Positions 12,140-62,862 of a stretch of DNA of 64,000 nt are shown piece by piece. The position numbers were made by a program, and so were the translations under genes. Positions within the stretch are counted from its first letter, which is position 1. Each line of letters starts with the position of its first letter. A model generated the notes under the pieces. The model was not told the DNA's origin and ran no database searches. It saw nothing but the letters and a program-made list of their open reading frames with translations. This DNA is from Bryoerythrophyllum caledonicum. Its lineage: Eukaryota; Streptophyta; Bryopsida; Pottiales; Pottiaceae. The DNA lies in assembly GCA_963971425.1 (NCBI GenBank), contig OZ020518.1:2058263-2122262 (forward strand), written 5' to 3'.

Positions 12140-15100
12140 ATGAGGATTGACGACGCGCCTCTCAATCACTACTTGATTCAACACCTAAAACCGTTGTGAG
12201 TGCCGTTTCTCCTTCCCTTCCCTCTCCGGCCACCTCAGGCAAAGTCACACAAAGTCCCTTGTCCCCCGCGAGAGCTATGAGCGATTTTTTTTTTGCGGGA
12301 GTGGTAATTCTTCGATAATTATATCTAAAGTTACGAGTGATCAGTAGGTCATGGTTGGGATATTATTTTCGTGCGCACATGTTTACGGTTGTAGGTTTAT
12401 TCTCGTGAGTAAGTCCTTCTCAGCAAAGCCAAGTACTTTTTGAGTTGTTCACGTCGCTCGACGCACAGGATGCAATGGAATAGGGTACGCTAGATTGATT
12501 TTGAAACGAACGAGAGCGGTCGCATAGCATTGGTTGTAAGGCTGAGCGCATGGTTGAGAGGTTTGATCCTTCATCGGAGCATGCTACATTTATAATACGC
12601 TGAGAAGCAGGAGGTAAACGTCAACTGAATGACGAGTAGATTGGTGGCTTTGATACGGTGTCCAGGACCGAAGCAAATCCTACCTTGCTTGCTGACTATG
12701 TTGCTGCATTATTAAAGAACCATAAGTCCAAGAAAGAGCTCCAGACATTGTGCGTGGATCAGCTCTACGACTTTCTTGGAGAAGGTCAGTTCATGGTGTC
12801 TGACAAGGTGCCTTCTCCTAATGGTCGAGTCCACGGTCTATAAGGATCGCTTTACTTATGAACTTATTGATGCTAGGAGAGGGTGTTATTTTTATTGATT
12901 ATCTCGTATCAACCGTGAGGTGCAGGAACAAACGCATTTGTTGTCAATCTCTTTAATGCTCTTGACGACGGAAGAATTCCCTCAAGTATGGAAGACTTAG
13001 AGGGTGCCAAGTCTCTGGACAACATAGACACTGTTGCTGGTATCAGGACATCACCTTCACATCTGGAGAGGCTGCCGAGTGCTGGCGTGCAGGACTGGAA
13101 GGACGAAGTAGAGGAAGAAGAGAGCAGTGATGATGACCGCAACCATAAGCATCGACGTCGAGTCTCTCGATCACGATCTCCTGATAGAATCGACGAACCT
13201 AATAATATTTCTCGTTACAATGGAGGCGGCTCGAACGATCTCAAACGTGATAACCATGGGAGAGGAGGTGGTCAATTTGATCGCGATAGGCCGAGACGAC
13301 CAGGCCGTGATGGAGGAGGTCGAGACGGCCTATTGCGTGGGAGTGGTCCTCCGTTTCGAGGGGATGTACCAAACCTGCGGCGCGACATGGGTCGTGGCAG
13401 AGGGTGGGTTGGTCCTATGCCGCCCCCTTTCGGTGATACAGTGCCTTTGTTGCCTCCGAATGCAGGATTTTTCCCGAATGGAAGGGGCCTGGGTGGTCGT
13501 GGGGCAGGAGGGTGGCCAGGAGGTTTCGGACACATGGGAGGCATGGGAGCCGGTCCCTTAGAGCGAGGGCCGCCTGGGGTCATGAACCTAGGTATGGGAA
13601 TGGGCATTGGTCCCGTTCGGCCGAGGTGTCTGGATTTTGAAGAACGAGGTTTCTGTCTGCGAGGTGACTTGTGTCCCATGGATCACGGCTCGCATATCGT
13701 CGTGGAGGACGTACAGGTATGATGCACCATTCCTTCTGTAGAATAGTAAGATGCATATCATCTAAGGTTTGGTTTTCTCTCTGCATATTATCCGGAAGCA
13801 TGCATTGTGGAAATTCAGTAGGTTCCGCGTGTTGAATTTTCATATCAACAGACGCTTTTTTAATGCTTAAGTGCCGGCGATGAGTATTATAGATTGCTCA
13901 TCTGGAATTCTTGGAAAGAAGTTCAGGCGTCTAAGCCCAGTTATTTCCTTCAACTCAGTGTTTTGATTGTGGCTCACTCTGCAGAGTCTCTCCAAGTTTA
14001 ACCTTCCTGTAAACCTCCCAAACGGGCGAGGTATGGTTGTGGCCCCTGGGCCAATGGCAGCCTCCAATTCCATGTTACCCACTATCGCACCTTCAAGTTC
14101 TCGGGGGAATCGAGGTAGCCGGGAGCCAAGCATTCCCCCACTGGACGTCCCGATTTCATTGAATGGCCAAGCGTCTGGTGCAGAGCCTGACTTGTATGAT
14201 CCTGATCAACCTCTTTGGAACAAAGATAGGCCTGAGGCTACTGGAAGGATTAGGAAGCTGTCATCTTTTCAGACGGAACAAACTGAAATGGACAAAGAGA
14301 AAGTAGAGCTCAAGAAAAACCCGGATGTGCGAGGAATTGATGGTGGCAGTAGAGGTGCAAACAATATTAGCGGTTTGGATGCTGGGTCCACTGTATGGGA
14401 TCGTATTGGACCTGTAGATGTAAATGCCGGAAGCTTAGAGATGAAGCTAGAGGAACAGCGGGGCCAGGGCAGAGGAGTCTCGTGGCAGCAAGGAAGATGG
14501 GGGGACCGTGAACCTGATAATGGAGCCACCCTGTTGAGTGCAACTCCTGGACGAGGACGAGGCGCTGCCGGGTGGGCAGAGGTAGGTCCTCCATTCAACC
14601 GCCCGAAAGAGGGGACCAACTCGGGGCTCCGTGCTTCTGGTCGCAGTGTAGAACGTGCTCAGTGCACACTCTATGTGAGCTGCATACCTCCCAATTCGAA
14701 TCGTGCAGAAGTCTTGCTCATGCACTTCGAAAAGTTTGGACGTGTTGTGGATGTCCGGATTCCGCCTCACAGTGACAGAGCCTTTGTCCAGTTTGCTACT
14801 CGCGAGGAGGCAGAATCAGCACTGGCTTCCCCTGACGCTGTAATGGGGAATCGCTTCATACGGCTGTCGTGGGCTAATCGGGATAGTATTACTAGTGACA
14901 ATGGCGCTTCCACCTCTTTTACTGGTCAGTCGCCAACTACTGGTATTGAGCCTACAGGTGGTCATGCTGCACAGTCAGTAAAAGGTCGGGGGAAACTGGG
15001 TTTTACTGGTCTGAATGGAGTGGTTGCCAGCATGTCAGGAGCTTCTATTACAGAAGGTAGCAACAAAGCCACCACCTCAAATGATTCTGCGTCGTCCTTA

Positions 15101-16295
15101 CCTACTCCAGTCGCAATGGTATCAAAGAAGCAGGAAGAACTTGAGCTTATGCGCGAGAAGATTCGTCAAAAGCAAGAGGCTCTTGCTCAGAAACGCGACG
15201 ATTTTCGGCGGAAGCTCGACAAGCTTGCTAGCCAGGTAAATTGTGCACCTGCACCTTATACACTGTTCCGGGACCTCTTCTGTCAATGTGCGTTTTTCCC
15301 GTTTGCAAAAGATTTTATGTAGGTAGACTTCCTGACAGTTTCAGTTCCCAAGCAGCGTTTGCTGGATCCTATTGTAAAGGATTTGATAGGACGCTCTGCA
15401 ACATTATGGTTTCGCTTATTCGTTTGTTCGAATTATTGGACTGGATTTCAGGGAGCTACTGGAACTGAAGATCATGTTGGAGAGCAGGCTACTAAGCGGC
15501 AGAAAACTAATGCTGGCGACGTCAGAGTCTCGAAAGAGACCCTCGTCAGCAATTCACCAGCTAGTACTGGCCTTAAAAAAACCAGCTCAGGCGAAGCTGC
15601 GCAGGTTGGAGTGCAACAGGTGTTGCTGAAGCCTATAAGGTCTCCTCGCCCTCGGACGGCTTCTGGAGTATCCGCAGGACATCCTTCAGTTGCTTGGGGT
15701 CCTGCACGATTTAAACTTGATAACCGCACTACTACTTTTAGAGTTCTGCCTCCCCTTCCAGCCACTGTCCCGGATGTAAGTCCAATCGTTTCCTAAGTAA
15801 GCAAGAACTAAGTGCTGGATGTTGTTATGGTCTATGCTTAAGTCGATGAGGTGGAATACTGACATTGTGGGGGATCGATGCTTTTTATGCAAACAGGTTG
15901 CGGCTGTAAGAGAACATTTCGCAGCATTTGGTGAGCTATCAAGGGTTGAAGTTGAGGATGCCGACAGCCAGAAAGTGGAATCAGAACAGTCATTGCCTGC
16001 TAACAACCCCATAAGGGTAAGCTATACTACTCGACGAAGTGCTGAAAGAGCTATGACCCAGGGCAGGTGGTTTCATGGCCAGTCTTTAAATCTGGCTTGG
16101 GTCTCCACTTCCTCAACCATTCGGCCTTCAGAAAGTTTGGCCCCTTCTTCTAACAAGGCCGCCGTGGCAGAGCCTGGGATCAATAGTAGAGGTGATGCCA
16201 ATGAGGTTCCGGAAGAGGATCAGCAGCATCACGTAGAAAGTCAGGCAACAGTTATAACAGACGAAGCTCTTCAAACTCCAGCTCAGGTGATGTAA
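12140..16295 (+). CDS. CCCH zinc finger and RRM protein, C3H41 / RBM26-27 type
   Basis: Six coding exons: 12140-12195, 12666-12784, 12926-13716, 13985-15235, 15452-15775 and 15897-16295, with GT-AG junctions and consistent phases, giving 979 residues. The N-terminal 85 residues form the PWI-like helical domain found in RBM26/27 and C3H41. A charged RS-like and Gly/Arg-rich stretch follows, then a C-x8-C-x5-C-x3-H finger (residues 293-312), an RRM (about 546-622), a coiled coil rich in KQEELELMREK-like sequence (about residues 700-739), and a second, degenerate RRM near residues 835-912. Animal relatives belong to the exosome-targeting PAXT machinery, so a nuclear RNA surveillance role is inferred. 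The start was chosen because MRIDDAPLNHYLIQHLKPL begins the PWI-like helix. An upstream in-frame ATG at 11996 is less likely. The last exon could splice further at CAG/GTGATG just before the stop. Confidence 0.9.
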
Positions 16296-17110
16296 CACCA
16301 CAAAAGAGATGTATCAACTGTCAAAATAGTTCTGAATGTTTCTGGAATCCCACTTTGCGCTGGGAAACATTTGAATGCCTCATTAGAATAGACATTTAGT
16401 GCAGCAGCGTAGACTCTGTAATTTGTAAGCATTTCGGTTTCTACCCTTTTAGGACTTTCAATTGGCAACAAGTTCACCAGATGTAGAGCTCATCTACAAC
16501 TACAGTATGTGCAGTCATCAGATCTTATTTTTGGAAGTAAAATGAAAGAAGTCACTTGGCTGGCTTGGCTGTCTGCAATTGAAACGGCATAAATCCCTGT
16601 CCATGTCTGCAATTCTGTCGTTTGTATGCATTGCTATTCCTTCGCCAAGCCGGTATCCATACTCGTCCGAAACCTGGGAAACATTCATCCAAAATGGGCC
16701 ACATACATCCAAAAGCAGAAAACGTTCATTCAACCTTTTGGAGTACATTCATCCAAAATTGTCAGATGAAGAAGAAAACGGAGCGAAGCGGAAGAAGAAG
16801 GGTTTTAGCAGGGTTTTGCAGAATCGTGAGGACATTTGGAGAATCAGGCAGCGAGAGCGGACCGGAGCTGAGGATGAGGAAGCGGAGAGCGGGGAGCAAC
16901 GAAGTTTGCGTAGGATAGACACGGATACACAGAGACACGGACTCGAGCATCGAGATGTTGATAGGAGAAAGAGAGATACGGACTCGAGCATAGAGATGTT
17001 GATAGGAGAAAGAGAGAAAGAGAGAGTCGTGTCGAGTTTGTCGTTATCGTCACGCAACCATCGTCGCTTACCATCACCGGTCTTCTTCCTCGCCGTAGCC
17101 TCGCTCCGTC
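16296..17110 (+). promoter_or_regulatory. 3' UTR of the C3H41-like gene and 5' region of the AP2-repeat gene
   Basis: The two genes lie head to tail about 815 bp apart. The second half contains two near-identical purine-rich blocks with GATGTTGATAGGAGAAAGAGAG (about 16953 and 16995) about 42 bp apart, followed by a pyrimidine-rich stretch just before the ATG at 17111. The ORFs crossing this area lack domains and look like purine-repeat artefacts. Confidence 0.45.
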
Positions 17111-20100
17111 ATGTTCTCGCTGGACTCGCTCTGCTTCGGCAGGGCCACTTCCCTGGCCTCCGCCGCGTTCTCTGCTCGCATTCTTGCCCCGATTTTCCAC
17201 TCTCCGAATTCCGCGCTCATTCTCTCTTGCAGCGCTGACGGACATTCGTCTGCTCCCTACTCACGCTTCAAAGGTCTGAATCTTTTTTCTTTTGTAATGC
17301 CGTTTGTGGTCGTATTTAGGGTTTTAGACTCTCCGCTTATGGGACTGCGGTCTTCATAGGCCTTCGCGAGACACGAGGCCGGTGGGAAGCGTGCATTGAG
17401 GAGGGGAGCCGTCAAGCGAAACTGTTGTTTGCGTCGGAGGAAGAGGCAGCGAAAGCTTATGACAAGTGAGTGATTGCAATTTAGGTCTTACGTATTTTAT
17501 TTTATTTTTATTTTTTTGACAATTGGCTCTCTCGTATTTGTAGAGCTCAGTACAAACTTCATGGAGACGAAGCTGAAACCAATTTCGATCTTTCGGAAAA
17601 TGAGAAGGAGGAAGTAACGGAGCTGGAGTGGGAAGACCTGGTTCTGGATCTGCAGCTTCAAGGATTGCCAAAGGCGACACTATGTGAGTGAGTTCCCGGC
17701 TTGGCCCGCACAAATTAGGCCACAATTTCCACTGTTACTTGTATTGGATCCTAGTTTGTAGAGAAATTTCGCTTCTAGATGTCTCGACTTGTCTAAGATC
17801 TTATATGTTGTCTTGTTGCAGCGGGCTTGACTTATCATGGAGTCCTTTGCAAGAACGATCTCTGGCACACTCATGTCAAGATTGGCAAAAAGCGATACGT
17901 CGGTCACTTTACATCGATGATAGACGCCGTCAACGCATATGATATGTAGGTATCCTGTATTTTTATTAGAATGATGTTCTATCATGAAGAGATTAGAGGT
18001 TCTCATTAATTTCTGCAAGTCCAGTACTACATATGACGATATATTATGTGGTTGTACAGGGTGGAATACAAGCTTCATGGGAGTAAAGGCCTACTTAACT
18101 ATGATGTCACTGATGAGGAGGCAGCTGAACTGAAGGAGACTGACTGGGATTCCCTGATTTCGAAACTGGGATTAAAATTTATTGAACGCCGTAAACCTCG
18201 TAAGTAGGCGGTTTATATGTATGAGAGTCTTTGTGAATTTCTCTCTACGTATGCTTATCGAGATTACTGGTTTTGTGGATTTAGGGTCTGCCACCCCTTG
18301 TTCAGAATCGCCAGTGAACAGTCTTCAGCTGTAGCCGCTTATTTGGTTTTGATTTTTTGAGGGTATGTTGTCCTGGACTGTTCTTTTTCATCATGTTGTA
18401 GATTACAACGCTAATCTTCTAGGCTACTTCCTGCAGAGAAAACTGGATACCGTGGTGTACGTGAAGTTGCCTCTGGGAAGTGGTCTGCGAGCTATACCTA
18501 TAGAGGGACCTTAATACAGTTGGGGCGATTCGACTCGATAGATGCTGCCGTAAAATCATATGACAGGTACTGAACCCGGGATGTTCCTGCCAATGTGTGG
18601 TTTCTTGGCGCATCTCTAGTAGTTCCGACATGACCTCGTTTGTGATTGATGAAAGAGGATTTGAGCTTTCCCCTCACTTGTAGACTTTCCTGTGTAATAT
18701 GTTGTTGTGGTTGTTGTACGCACTCATAAGATCAGACACGTTTGCTAAATAAATCAGTTGTTATTTAATTACTTAACAAACGATTTATCGTTAACTTTGT
18801 GAAGTATTTCTTTGCTGAGTCCATGAGCACTCCCAAGGAATCTACATCGGGATCATTGTTTGGAAACTATAGAGAGAGAGCGACTTAGATTCAATAGACA
18901 AGACCACCTGAATCTCCTAATTTTATATTCTTTTCACACCTCTTTTTATTTGAGCGCTGTTGGAAATGGATATTAGTTCATGATTGTCTGGCCCTCAGTC
19001 GACTGTAAGATTCAGTTGGTAATACTGGTAATTTGCATGGTTCTTTTGTGGAGAAGAGGGTTATTTGACGGAATCTGAGTACATCTCAATGCTTTTATTT
19101 CACTTTTAAAGTTTTGATTTTCGTTTCTTTACAAAAGATTTGGAGACTGACTGAATTCCCTTCAGTTTTGCATATAAATTATGTGGAGAAGATGCCAAGC
19201 TGAATACATTTATGGAAGAGGATGAGAAGGATCGGCTGTCCAAGCTCACCTTGAGAGAGGTCCGAGCTACTTTAGCACGTCAGGCTGTTCGTCCTCCAAG
19301 TTCAGGTATTATGCTTTCTGTAGATAGATTTATATCTTTGATCCTGGGAATGCTGAGCTTGCTGATATTGTACATTGTCCTGATAGCTTGCAACCTAATA
19401 ATAAATCCCAAACTCTTAAGGATAGTGGCCTAGAAGCATCACGTCTGCATCTCATTTTAGTATGACAAACCCTTCTTTTGTCGTTTTACTCGTAGAACTC
19501 ATTATTAACATTGTGGTGATGATACTCGACCGAAGTTGATTTGGGTGCTCGAGGAGCCCGACTTGTAAAGGGGAAGTGGGAGGTATGTGTGGAAAGCACA
19601 ATGCGCGACACTCTTTTCCTGGCTACTACAAGCAACGAAAAAGAGGCAACGCAGATTCATGACATGTGAGCATTTCCTTCTATATTTTCATACGACATGC
19701 ATGTATTGTATTAGGAATTATTATTTTTATCCTATAGATAGAGATCACCATATATATTGAGAAGTGTAGGTCAGGCAAACAGGGTAGAATCTCGATCTTG
19801 ATGCTTGGTTGTTGTTTCCACTGTCATTTGTGCCGTGCGTAGTTTGTGCAACCTGGTAAGCTGTGCAAAAATGCCAAGCGAACATATCATGGTGTAGGGA
19901 TGTTTGATTTATTGAACGTCAACTCTTGCAGAGCCGCTTATAAATTACATAAAGACTTAGCAAAGACGTATTCTGAGTTACCGCCCGAGCTACGGGAACA
20001 TTTAGATTCGATAGAGTGGGTAGCAGTTGCCGAAAAATTTGGCCTGCAAAGACTGCCTTCATGTACGGCCTCAGTTCTGCTCCATCTCACTTTCAATTCA

Positions 20101-21418
20101 TGCTTTTTTAGGAGTTCCTACTCATTGAAATGATACCTGTGCTTGGAAGTTAAACATATACCCTGGAATGCCTTTTTGCTTGGAAGTTGGATCGGGAAGC
20201 AGATTCTATGCGTGTGTAGTCACGTTTCTGCTCTTGCTGCCTGCAGATAACGGAGTCAAGAGGTTAGTTTCAGGGATGTGGCAAAGCTTCCTACGTTATG
20301 GAGGATCCTACCTACCCGTTGGTACATTTGCTTCAGCTGAAGTGGCCGCTCACGCCTCTGACATGTAAGCCACTTCATTAATCTCTATTACACAGATGAA
20401 TTTCTATGTGTCTTCAATTTGAGGTTTGGAGGTACAGCTCAGAGGTGAGATTCGGCATTGCAATGACGATTTATCACTCAAGCTAACTTCGAAGGGCCTG
20501 AAAACAGGTGTACGTACAAGCTGCGAGGAGACTCACGAGGGGTAGTTTATAACTTTCCACTGGAGGACTCCGAAAAGAGACAAGTGGAAAAGCTTCAATG
20601 GGGTCAATTAGTTGCTAGCCTTCGAGGTATCTTCTGTTCCTCGTCCACATGCAAAAAAATTTAGTTGCACACTTCCCGTTGTCTGAGGAGGGAGTCTTTC
20701 TGTTCATTCTGCGGCTTGGATACGTTTGGTTTGAGATACGATTGAACAATGCTAGTAATTTTCGAGGCATACCTATTTTTTATGTAATGAGATTGGTTAC
20801 GTTGAAGTAATTGGGACAAAATTGATGCCAAAATTCAGTGTGGGGCCAAGTTGAGTATACTTTGATTAGTTTAATCTCCTGGAACAAAGCTTCATACCTT
20901 GTTGTGAATGACGGTTGCAGAATCGCAAGAAACTTCCCCGCATATTGCTGAACTTAGTGACATGGAGGCGGCTGCTGCTATCAATCAGAAGCACTTGCCA
21001 CGAGATAAAAAATGGACACTTTTCTTGTGCCAGGAACAAATGATCCAACAGAGGGTAAAATTCTTGACTTGATGCGTTCTTTGCATCCTGATGCGGACTG
21101 TGTCTTACGGTTGGCATGTATACGCAGATGATGAGGAGGGCTTCTCGTGTCGGGCAACAAATTATAGTTCGGAGACCGGAGTTAGCACAACTATTTTCAC
21201 CCCTGAATCGACGTGCGGATGGATCCCCGTTGTTGGTTGAGGAGGTGATGGAGTGCAACTCAACGCCTCTGTTATGGACATGCCAATGTGGAAACCTGTT
21301 CCTCAAGTCTCCTGCTGTGCTGGGAAAGATCAAGGCTGTGTGTCACCAACCTGGGTGTACATCATTAGGACGAGATACAGACAGATGGAATAGATCATAC
21401 TTTGGCAGCCTCAACTAA
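17111..21418 (+). CDS. Protein with five tandem AP2-like modules
   Basis: Thirteen exons with GT-AG junctions give 621 residues: 17111-17273, 17360-17465, 17544-17683, 17822-17945, 18060-18199, 18437-18566, 19166-19305, 19536-19665, 19932-20062, 20247-20364, 20508-20626, 20921-21054 and 21128-21418. Five modules of about 88 residues begin near residues 51, 137, 225, 315 and 402. Each has an AP2/ERF-like core (best in module 3: GYRGVREVASGKWSA, LGRFDS, AAVKSYD, YKLCG) and an acidic helical tail with a W-x-x-L pattern (EEVTELEWEDLV, ELKETDWDSLI). Every module is two exons, with a phase-2 intron right after the Y-D motif and phase-1 introns between modules. The tail recalls the Soloist-type AP2 protein At4g13040. 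The N-terminus is Ser/Ala-rich with few acidic residues, like an organelle transit peptide. The C-terminus has C-x-C and C-x4-C pairs. DNA binding is inferred. Modules 4 and 5 are the most diverged. Confidence 0.85.
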
Positions 21419-22893: not shown

Positions 22894-23575
22894 TATACTA
22901 GGGTTGATACCCGTCGTCCCGACGGGAAGAGCGGAGGATGGTGTGTTAAATATACGTTTGTATGTTTTGTATTTTATCCCCCATTGTCATCAACTGGCCG
23001 GGGCAATCCCAAGTTAAATAAACATATGTAAATGCAAAAATCAAAATTACCCATTATATACGCATTATGTACTATATATATCTATTATTCACTTTAAATA
23101 CCCAATATTTATTTCATATACGTGTTATTGTCTTTAGATAACTATCATTTATTTTATGTACCCGAGGTAGTATATTGTATAGTTTCAATATGTTGGAAAT
23201 TATGGTTTTATTTTTCTATTTTTGATACATAATACAATTTTAAAACTCAATAAGCCAAATTTGAATAAAAGGGCACTATAAAGGATTCCTCCAAAGGGAA
23301 CTATAAAGGATTCCTCCAAAGGGCACTATAAAGGATTCCTCCAAAGGGCTCTATAGAGGATTCCTCCAAAGGGCACATATGGAGGATTCCTCCAAAGGGC
23401 ACTATAAAGGATTCCTCCAAAGGGCACTATAAAGGATTCCTCCAAAGGGCACATATGGAGGATTCTTTCAAAGTTCACATTCAATTCAAAGGGCACACTT
23501 GATTCAAATGGCAAATCCAAAGGTCACGTGACCGGGAGCGGCGGACAGACAGACTGTCGCCTATTATATAAGTAG
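22894..23575 (+). mobile_element. Candidate non-autonomous transposon with terminal hairpin
   Basis: The stretch is bounded by (TA)n runs. It starts with CTAGGGTTGATACCC and a perfect hairpin, CCCGTCG-TCC-CGACGGG (22910-22926), and ends in CGCCTATTATATAAGTAGATA. It contains words shared with the foldback arms at 23920-24930 and a 25-bp minisatellite. The layout recalls Helitron-like or MITE derivatives, but I cannot name the family. No protein is encoded. Confidence 0.4.
23281..23475. repeat. 25-bp minisatellite, about eight copies
   Basis: A 25-26-bp unit of the form AAGGATTCCTCCAAAGGGCA followed by CTATA repeats from 23281 to about 23475. The unit itself occurs once in each neighbouring foldback arm (near 24110 and 24685), so the array is a local amplification of part of that element. 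Confidence 0.85.
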
Positions 23576-60448: not shown

Positions 60449-62862
60449 TTAGGCTACATCGTCATCGAGGTTGAAGATCTCTCGGACGGGCCCTTTGAAC
60501 CAGTGGCGCGCATCCACGACCCACCAGCCCATGACGAGGAAGAGCACCACGCCCAGCGCCACGGGCGCGTAGTTGAAGGTCTCCAGCTTGATGGGGTAGG
60601 ACGTGGGCAGCAGGAACACCACGCAAGTGTAGCAGATCCACAGAAACGCCACCAGGCACACCCACCGGCTGGCGCCGCCCATGTGGAACGGCCCCCGCTT
60701 GAACTTCTCCGACTTGATCACCATGCGCGCGAAGATGGGCACCGCGTACCCGCCGACCCACCCGATGGTGCAGATGGACGTGATGGCTGTGAACACCACG
60801 TTCAGCTTCAGGATCGGCAGGCCCAGCACAATCGCAAACGCCGCCGCGAACCACACCGCGTTCACAGGCACCTGCACGCTCCGGTTCACCTTCCGCAGCT
60901 GCTTGGAGTATGGCACTCCTCCGTCCCGCGAGAGCGCATACACCTGGGAAGGCGACCAAAGACTAGTGAGACCAGAGATGTGACAGAGCCTGTGTATGTC
61001 AACACAGAGAGCGAGGTCCAAAGTGGTAACTACTTTTGGGTTCACGCTGGAACTCAATAGTATTCTCATTCACTCATGCATGCTGCTGGCTTTATCTTGT
61101 TGGATACTCTCTCGGCCTAGTTACCCTTCCGAGTAGTTTATGATGTGTTGAATGATTAGCTAGTGGTTGTCCTTAGGGTGCAGAATCTGGTACTTACAAC
61201 GCGAGCTGCACTGGTGGTGATGGAAAGGCCAGCGAAGAAGAATGAGCCCCAGATGACACACAGGAGGATGATGGCTCCTGTGCCGCTCTGGTAGCGCCCA
61301 TAGAATGCGTCGTACAGTATTTGAGCAGGGACAAAAGCACCTCCTGTTTCATTTGTGGTGTCGTACAAATAACTCGGGTCCTGGAAAACAGCAGCAGTGA
61401 TTTTGTAACATTTTTCTTTCTACAACTAGGAGCAACAAACGAGGTGTGTGTGCTTACCTGAATACTAAAGATGAGAGCCAGGATGAAGGCCCAACCGAAG
61501 ATGGAAATCATCCCAATGCTGGAAAGAATTGCAATAGGACCATTCCTGTCGGCGTTTCTAGTCTCCTCCGTCAGATGGGCAGCGGCATCATACCCGTAGA
61601 GGGAATACTGGCTCACCAGAAAAGCCATCATAACAGCATACACAGGATTCGAGATACCTGTCGTATCTGACGCGATATCCATCTTCGTAAACACGTAGGA
61701 GGCAGACTGAGTGGTCGGCGCTACCAAGGGCAGCATGATGACAATCAAAGTCCCTCCCAAAACCTGAGACAAAGGTCCAGACTATTAAAATCCAGGTGAA
61801 AAGAGTCATAACAGAAAGACCAGGAGAGATTTCGCACCTGCCACCACATGGAAACGATATCAATGAGAGCGATGAGATTGAGAGCAAAGCTGTTGAGCAC
61901 GGCCCAGATGAGACAGAGGCCGATATAAACTGCGAGAAATACACCTCGAGGTGCGAAGTAGCCGCCATTCTTGTTAGTCCCCGTTGAGAGCAGAATGATA
62001 TTCTGCAAGGTTTGCGTTCCTGCATACGCCTATCCACAAGCAATGTTACACTATGATGGTGAGAGTGGATCCACAATAACGAGTCACAGCCTATAATTAC
62101 CTGCGTTCCAATGCCCGCGATCAAACCAATCGCTTCAAGCCACGCACAAATCCATGATGCCAATGGTCCCCATTTCGGCCCAGACAAATGAGCCGCCCAA
62201 AAATACAGCGATCCTGTCGTCTGTCAACAAACGCAAACCATGATAAAGAAGAAAACTCAACGCACGGGATATGAACATAAACGTAACCCTATCTAAATTT
62301 TCTAGGTGAAGGAGAGAAGCAACGTACTGGGAAACTGCTGCAGATTTCCGCCCTGCACATCATAGGCCATTCACTATTAGAACATCTTCTTACAAAAATT
62401 TAATCTGCCAATGAAAGAACATAGAAGCTGATCTTACATTGCCAAGCCGACGAACCACGTGAAGAAGGAAACCACTACCCAGCCCCACAACACGGGAGCT
62501 GGCCCCGCGTAGATGAAACTGATCCCGAAGAGCGGGACGATTCCCGTGAACAACGACATAGTCGAAAACGCAATCGCCAGGCACTTGAAGAGCGTCTTCA
62601 CATCACATCCACGATTCATTCCCCATCAGACATGCGCACAAGAAAGAAAGAAAGAAAGAAAGAAGGGGAAAAAGGCCGCGGGTGCGCGAATTAAGGGAAA
62701 CAGTAGTAGTACCATCTCGCGCCGGAGCTCCTGCTTGTACCCCAGTTCATTGAGGCGGCGCTCCCCGGTGTCCATCTCCCCCGCGGCAGCCGCGCTCTTC
62801 TTGCGTGCCATATCCTCCCCGCTCCTCATGGTCGCCAGCAACGACGTCGACTCCCCTTGCAT
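60449..62862 (-). CDS. Amino acid permease of the APC superfamily, BAT1-like
   Basis: Eight minus-strand exons, 62862-62713, 62595-62438, 62352-62328, 62220-62101, 62029-61838, 61763-61458, 61380-61198 and 60943-60449, give 542 residues with consistent phases. The N-terminal cytosolic part ends in RRLNELGYKQEL, typical of BAT1/GABA-permease proteins. About twelve hydrophobic segments follow, including FGISFIYAGPAPVLWGW, AEICSSFPTTGSLYFWAA, YDAAAHLTEETRNADRNGP and RVVYALSRDGGVPYS, the hallmark loops of this APC subfamily. Members exchange or import amino acids such as GABA, alanine and glutamate across plasma or organelle membranes; the substrate here is not determined. Exon 3 is only 25 nt. 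The start ATG lies a few bases after a likely acceptor (TTTGCAG/GTCAG), so a 5' UTR intron is probable. Confidence 0.93.

Follow-up and report, generated by a model that had tools for sequence, protein, structure and literature searches.

Within a 64,000-nucleotide (nt) window of the Bryoerythrophyllum caledonicum genome (contig OZ020518.1), we analyzed the gene at 17111–21418 on the + strand, referred to here as the array gene, which is predicted to encode five AP2-like modules followed by a Cys-containing C-terminal tail. Plant AP2 proteins are usually classed by whether they have one AP2 domain or two. We are highly confident of this structure and of its origin by duplication of exon pairs; sequence comparison identifies the gene as the orthologue of the one recorded as MpAP2L3 in Marchantia. 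The protein may further act as a multivalent regulator that binds nucleic acid mainly through modules 4 and 5 and the tail, to which we give a little short of an even chance. Origin and function taken together form an account that we consider fairly probable.

Structure of the Array Gene

The gene model comprised 13 exons joined in a single open frame of 621 amino acids with its stop at 21418, and all 12 introns were GT-AG, bearing out the five-module model that an earlier note had proposed from the letters of this DNA alone. The parts of the gene are as follows.

17111..17257, + strand, N-terminal leader, residues 1–49, Ala/Ser-rich (gene model, alignment)
17258..17683, + strand, module 1, end of exon 1 and exons 2–3, AP2-like core and acidic helical tail (gene model, profiles)
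17822..18199, + strand, module 2, exons 4–5 (gene model, profiles)
18437..19305, + strand, module 3, exons 6–7, top single-module Pfam AP2 score of 27.0 bits (gene model, profiles, Pfam)
19536..20062, + strand, module 4, exons 8–9, lowest AP2 score, well conserved (gene model, profiles, alignment)
20247..20626, + strand, module 5, exons 10–11, top conservation among modules against Marchantia (gene model, profiles, alignment)
20921..21418, + strand, C-terminal tail, exons 12–13, residues 481–621 (gene model, Pfam, alignment of relatives)
21281..21358, + strand, W-x-C-x-C-G ... C-x4-C motif within the tail (alignment of 4 sequences)

Each of the five modules is split at the same place by a phase-2 intron, 2 nt past the D of a YD-type motif (AYD, AYD, SYD, IHD and ASD in modules 1 to 5, respectively). 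The introns preceding each module and the intron following module 5 are in phase 1, and the last intron is in phase 0. The exon symmetry claimed earlier thus held for the splitting intron and for the phases, but the between-module introns are positionally identical only in modules 2, 3 and 4, where they lie 6 residues ahead of the G of the xxG motif; the intron of module 1 lies at this G, and that of module 5 lies 2 residues ahead of it. Exons 3, 5 and 7 measure 140 nt apiece. The acidic helical tail pattern was likewise present in the modules, except that its W is missing from module 3, and the C-terminal part, at residues 481–621, proved larger than the note had stated. All ten module exons were recovered individually by a module profile that includes them, and across the window this profile gave no match beyond the module exons except one at an expectation value (E) of 0.96. 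Exon 8 has the sole acceptor with an A at −3, and the acceptors of exons 11 and 12 are poorer in pyrimidines.

AP2 Likeness of the Modules

Leave-one-module-out profiles scored the modules at 31.4–78.5 bits, compared with 3.5–13.5 bits for the top-scoring shuffle out of 200 made from each module. A second profile was built from 91 AP2 domains outside the family, which had been gathered with the module profile and are therefore somewhat biased towards a match. It scored modules 1, 2, 3 and 5 at 45.9–56.5, 31.9–44.2, 45.0–54.3 and 35.7–52.0 bits, respectively, and module 4 lowest, at 17.3–21.9 bits (best shuffles, 4.4–8.1). Pfam AP2 (PF00847) matched the whole window protein at 40.8 bits, above the cut-off of 33.3, and its M. 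polymorpha relative (P0003) at 71.7 bits, with four stretches at E ≤ 10. Searched singly, as strings in which a few residues at the junctions do not match the final splicing, modules 1 (19.3 bits) and 3 (27.0 bits) fell under the cut-off and modules 2, 4 and 5 gave no Pfam AP2 match. The earlier note had held that failure of single modules in profile searches would speak against a functional five-module protein; this is what Pfam gave for modules 2, 4 and 5, but the more sensitive profiles overturned it.

When a profile of 20 modules was compared with the PDB, only AP2 proteins appeared at E ≤ 1 (5 of the 5 listed: WRI1 at 72.9 bits, two ATERF1 sequences, ERF096 and TEM1). Secondary structure was predicted to be AP2-like, and for the counterpart of module 5 in a close relative, P0001, modelling gave an AP2 fold like that of WRI1 and TEM1. 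By these profile comparisons all five modules are AP2-like, module 4 being the weakest.

Relatives and Conservation of the Array

Scoring in the search for relatives was confined to the 7998 candidates with the most words in common, and three of the 32 listed matches span 89–92% of the window protein: P0001 (77% identity), Mapa_012604 of M. paleacea (P0002; 50%) and “protein MpAP2L3” of M. polymorpha (49%); the others listed reached at most 48 bits. P0001 is a 564-residue frame, beginning near the exon-2 border, on a contig of 2086 nt; as the gene itself spans 4.3 kb, we took this contig as a spliced transcript. Three more sequences came from a double-module search (48 listed): P0033, an environmental sequence with modules 2–5 in part, the transcript-like contig P0034 and R1flu_017720 of Riccia fluitans, which has the leader and module 1 only and is probably a short model. 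The remaining matches belonged to different sorts of AP2 protein, led by P0036, in which three AP2 matches were found.

In both Marchantia proteins, which come from liverworts, the five modules and the tail follow one another as in the window protein (49–50% identity over 89–92%), which identifies the window gene, at the level of sequence, as an orthologue of MpAP2L3. They differ in their leader, of ∼195 residues compared with ∼50 in the window protein, and the two leaders gave no convincing alignment. The gene is already known under this database name and so is not new. The literature searched, whose scope left most subscription journals and supplements outside, contained no account of MpAP2L3 or of its five-module architecture; among the passages found, “MpAP2L” names were limited to MpAP2L2 and MpAP2L5.

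Between the window protein and that of M. polymorpha, 38/86, 41/88, 38/90, 45/87 and 49/78 residues are identical in modules 1 to 5, as are 39/61 in tail residues 506–566; the linker at 482–505 is poorly conserved (6/21). The closer P0001 gave a flatter picture (68/84, 64/88, 66/90, 69/87 and 64/80), with modules 1, 4 and 5 level at 79–81% and modules 2 and 3 at 73%. The earlier note had read a graded decay into modules 4 and 5. Against Marchantia, conservation is highest in these two modules and across most of the tail, so that decay is not indicated; as judged from these alignments, module 4 is the one that has diverged furthest from AP2, yet as a conserved form.

The tail appears to be peculiar to the family. 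Residues 481–621 had no Pfam match, a search of the own genome with exon 13 returned only itself, and a dedicated tail search, which detects only relatives sharing exact short words, listed from 516 candidates at E ≤ 10 the same three relatives and no protein outside the family. Five AP2 matches, apart from one another, were found in each of two unnamed proteins, P0007 and P0010, whose multi-AP2 architecture is independent of that of the array, so the module count alone is not unique. Unlike the array, they have short AP2 domains set apart, with matches that end at about profile position 44–48 and no module tail, and they lack the CxC...Cx4C tail. Among the proteins searched, only the MpAP2L3 family was, as far as sequence goes, found to have an exon-paired array whose modules bear tails and which is followed by a C-terminal part of its own.

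Origin by Exon-Pair Duplication

A tree of 20 module rows grouped the modules by position and not by species, with 4 changes, the minimum possible; the module 1 group had modest support (67/69). This grouping indicates that the array most likely existed before the sampled species diverged. At the nucleotide level only two short two-copy repeat families were found, neither corresponding to the modules; since no module similarity is left in the DNA, the duplications are taken to be old.

We then read all 83 PF00847 matches in the own genome (437 Mb, 894 contigs), a lower bound on genes from a search that did not itself detect the window modules. None of the 83 had a phase-2 split 2 nt past the D. 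In ten ERF/DREB-type genes (L009–L016, L022 and L080) an intron recurs at one spot in the AP2 helix; it is in phase 1, 4 nt past the D and 2 nt from the site of the array gene, and has a fitting downstream exon. L100 is split immediately ahead of AYD, L027 and L028 are split upstream, and the two-domain AP2 exons examined are unsplit through YD. That many of the Pfam matches stop at YD had prompted the idea of a shared intron, but an identical, shared ancestral intron was rejected, given the different phase and position in the ten ERF/DREB-type genes and the unsplit two-domain exons.

Exon-pair duplication, on which exon phases, profiles and trees agree as the note had proposed, is the best explanation of the array. 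Because the split is absent from the 83 matches and the two-domain exons are unsplit, a single intron gain beforehand is the simplest account. The ancestral two-exon unit would have consisted of an AP2-like β sheet and helix followed by a two-helix tail, and would have gained the phase-2 intron in its AP2 helix before duplicating. Tandem duplication, exon pair by exon pair through the phase-1 flanking introns, would then have yielded five in-frame modules before the sampled species split, as phases, profiles and trees suggest, and divergence would afterwards have given each of the five modules a surface of its own, separately conserved.

Apparent Skipping of Module 4

P0034 is 99% identical to P0001 where aligned and is without module 4. 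Its junction (...RPPSS-D-YGVRR) is the exon 7–exon 10 join expected from the phases; the same join in the window gene would read RPPSSDNGVK. In the window gene the frame is kept when exon pairs 2+3, 6+7 or 8+9 are skipped, whereas skipping 4+5 or 10+11 leads to a stop at the junction; the frame is kept as well on skipping the mixed pairs 3+4, 5+6, 7+8 and 9+10. Skipping of module 4 in life would be attested by this one contig (3 member sequences). The earlier note had counted transcripts that skip modules as evidence against a five-module protein. P0034 resembles such a transcript, but P0001 carries all five modules, so P0034 looks like alternative splicing and not like a refutation.

Placement among AP2 Subfamilies

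Over the 20 modules the best-scoring subfamily profile was ERF in 12, AP2-R2 in 4, AP2-R1 in 2 and RAV in 2, with mostly small margins (profiles built from 41, 24, 24 and 2 sequences, respectively). Profile-profile scores were 106.6 for R2, 105.2 for ERF, 88.2 for R1 and 71.3 for RAV, so that the groups sharing the helical tail, R1 and RAV, were not the best overall.

The array has five modules, compared with exactly two domains in the AP2 subfamily and a single one in ERF/DREB proteins. AP2-type two-domain factors (WRI1, AIL/ANT) share the AP2 fold, and a similar helical linker comes after their R1 (aligned over profile positions 3–84), but the own-genome copies examined have introns before the helix and not after YD. 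One further two-domain locus (L030, C1:15768237–15768863, − strand) is matched in one stretch that contains a TAA, has a second domain that has diverged, and is perhaps a pseudogene. RAV proteins (TEM1) combine one AP2 domain with a B3 domain; the window protein had no B3 match at E ≤ 1, and the own-genome RAV-like locus is unsplit through the AP2 domain. Two RAV-like loci, L041 and L042 (C15:18589454, +, and C15:18629343, −), which lie ∼40 kb apart on opposite strands and have identical match values, represent either a recent inverted duplication or an assembly duplicate.

The tail pattern had led the earlier note to suggest a Soloist-like ancestor. Soloist (the At4g13040 group) resembles the array as a divergent AP2 with several introns, according to passages of PMC9413063, but has a single AP2 domain. 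The signature that passages of PMC9520294 give for AT4G13040 and its kin, MRG/RLYD in place of YRG/RAYD, occurs in none of the 20 modules, and AP2-type R1 domains and RAV domains match the helical tail as well. Among the listed matches of the relatives and double-module searches, where most names are generic or absent, no name pointed to Soloist. With a signature that is lacking and a tail that is non-specific, we rejected Soloist ancestry as a supported origin, in a comparison limited to motifs, profiles and match names.

Possible Functions of the Array Protein

At seven positions that we take, from the 1GCC literature, to be the base contacts of ERF1, each of the 20 modules keeps 0–2 residues, in line with the changed DNA-contact surfaces that had been suggested earlier. 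Since these residues are mostly lost, classical GCC-box binding is unlikely. TEM1, of the DNA-binding RAV family, also keeps just 2; the low count thus speaks against ERF-type reading and not against DNA binding. Four Arg residues in the sheet strands of modules 4 and 5 (R320, R323, R407 and R418) are invariant in 4/4 sequences, and the C-terminal part is basic (net +5); together they suggest nucleic acid as a ligand. C577, C579, C597 and C602 of the tail motif, also invariant in 4/4, form a possible metal site. Core net charge is −2 to +6, inside the range of outside domains (−2 to +10).

We propose that the protein is a regulator, probably nuclear, that would not read the GCC box. Modules 4 and 5 and the Cys tail would make the essential contacts and modules 1–3 would add avidity or spacing, and the protein may be tuned by leaving out module 4 in frame. 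Several observations weigh against this proposal or the origin joined to it. The sheet holds only 2–6 K+R per module, compared with a mean of 6.7 in the 91 outside domains (TEM1, 4), and module 1 with its tail has a net charge of −9. Conservation was judged from four sequences, and module 1 falls into two groups in a 45-row tree with outside domains (88 columns, many open forks). The structure model was weak (mean predicted local distance difference test score (pLDDT) 58.1, predicted template modelling score (pTM) 0.33, tail <50), and a second fold model, of module 5 and tail from P0034, was unusable (mean pLDDT 34.6). Module 4 matched no named AP2 chain in the fold-model comparison, where the non-appearance of other families does not count against them.

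Among the alternatives, a protein-interaction scaffold, whose modules would have left nucleic acid and whose W-x-x-L helical tails would dock partners, is unlikely: most whole modules are negative or near-neutral with acidic tails, and modules 4 and 5 contain unusual invariant residues, but the invariant Arg and the basic C-terminal part fit nucleic acid equally well. Similarly unlikely is that the array works wholly outside promoter reading, as a multivalent scaffold for RNA (or chromatin or organelle nucleic acid) in which each diverged sheet would hold a different segment and module 4 would be a splice cassette.

We regard as quite improbable a move of the array to plastid or mitochondrial RNA or ribosome work, by analogy with T. 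gondii mtAP2-1 to -4. Passages of PMC11652630 describe AP2 domains working there outside promoter reading, but these are parts of an apicomplexan mitoribosome and the likeness is by analogy only. A crude organelle filter on leader composition did not separate the family from AP2 controls. Passages of PMC9413063 report a survey that placed two legume Soloists in the chloroplast by prediction, so such predictions would be weak evidence for the location of the array protein.

That the five modules read an extended DNA site through ERF-like contacts appears more doubtful. The whole protein passes Pfam AP2, the predicted secondary structure is AP2-like and module 5 matches AP2 chains, but few of the seven ERF1 contacts are kept, the module surfaces are unlike one another, and the sheet is less basic than the mean outside domain. 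A decaying gene or mispredicted array, with modules 4–5 as degenerate remnants or spliced out, is barely credible, because the low AP2 score of module 4 and its skipping in P0034 stand against the conservation of modules 4 and 5 and the tail in Marchantia, the open frames with GT-AG introns and the five modules of P0001.

Neighboring Features

A 41-bp tandem repeat of 2.1 copies (16931–17017) lies in what is presumed to be the 5′ untranslated region of this gene, and a tandem array of a 25-bp unit (8.2 copies) lies downstream (23268–23473). Just upstream, same-strand (+) open frames at 13967–15319 and 15801–16292 have RRM-type matches (RRM_1 at 33.4 bits, and Nup35_RRM_2 under the cut-off). 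An amino acid permease exon lies at 60452–61069 on the − strand (AA_permease_2, 67.3 bits).

Significance

The array is a conserved protein of five AP2-like modules where one or two domains are usual, its duplication route can be read from the exon phases, and one of its modules is apparently dropped as an in-frame cassette. Its presence in the model M. polymorpha makes it open to direct experiment. It would offer a plant test case for the idea, drawn from the AP2 proteins of the Toxoplasma mitoribosome, that nucleic-acid binding is a general property of the AP2 fold.
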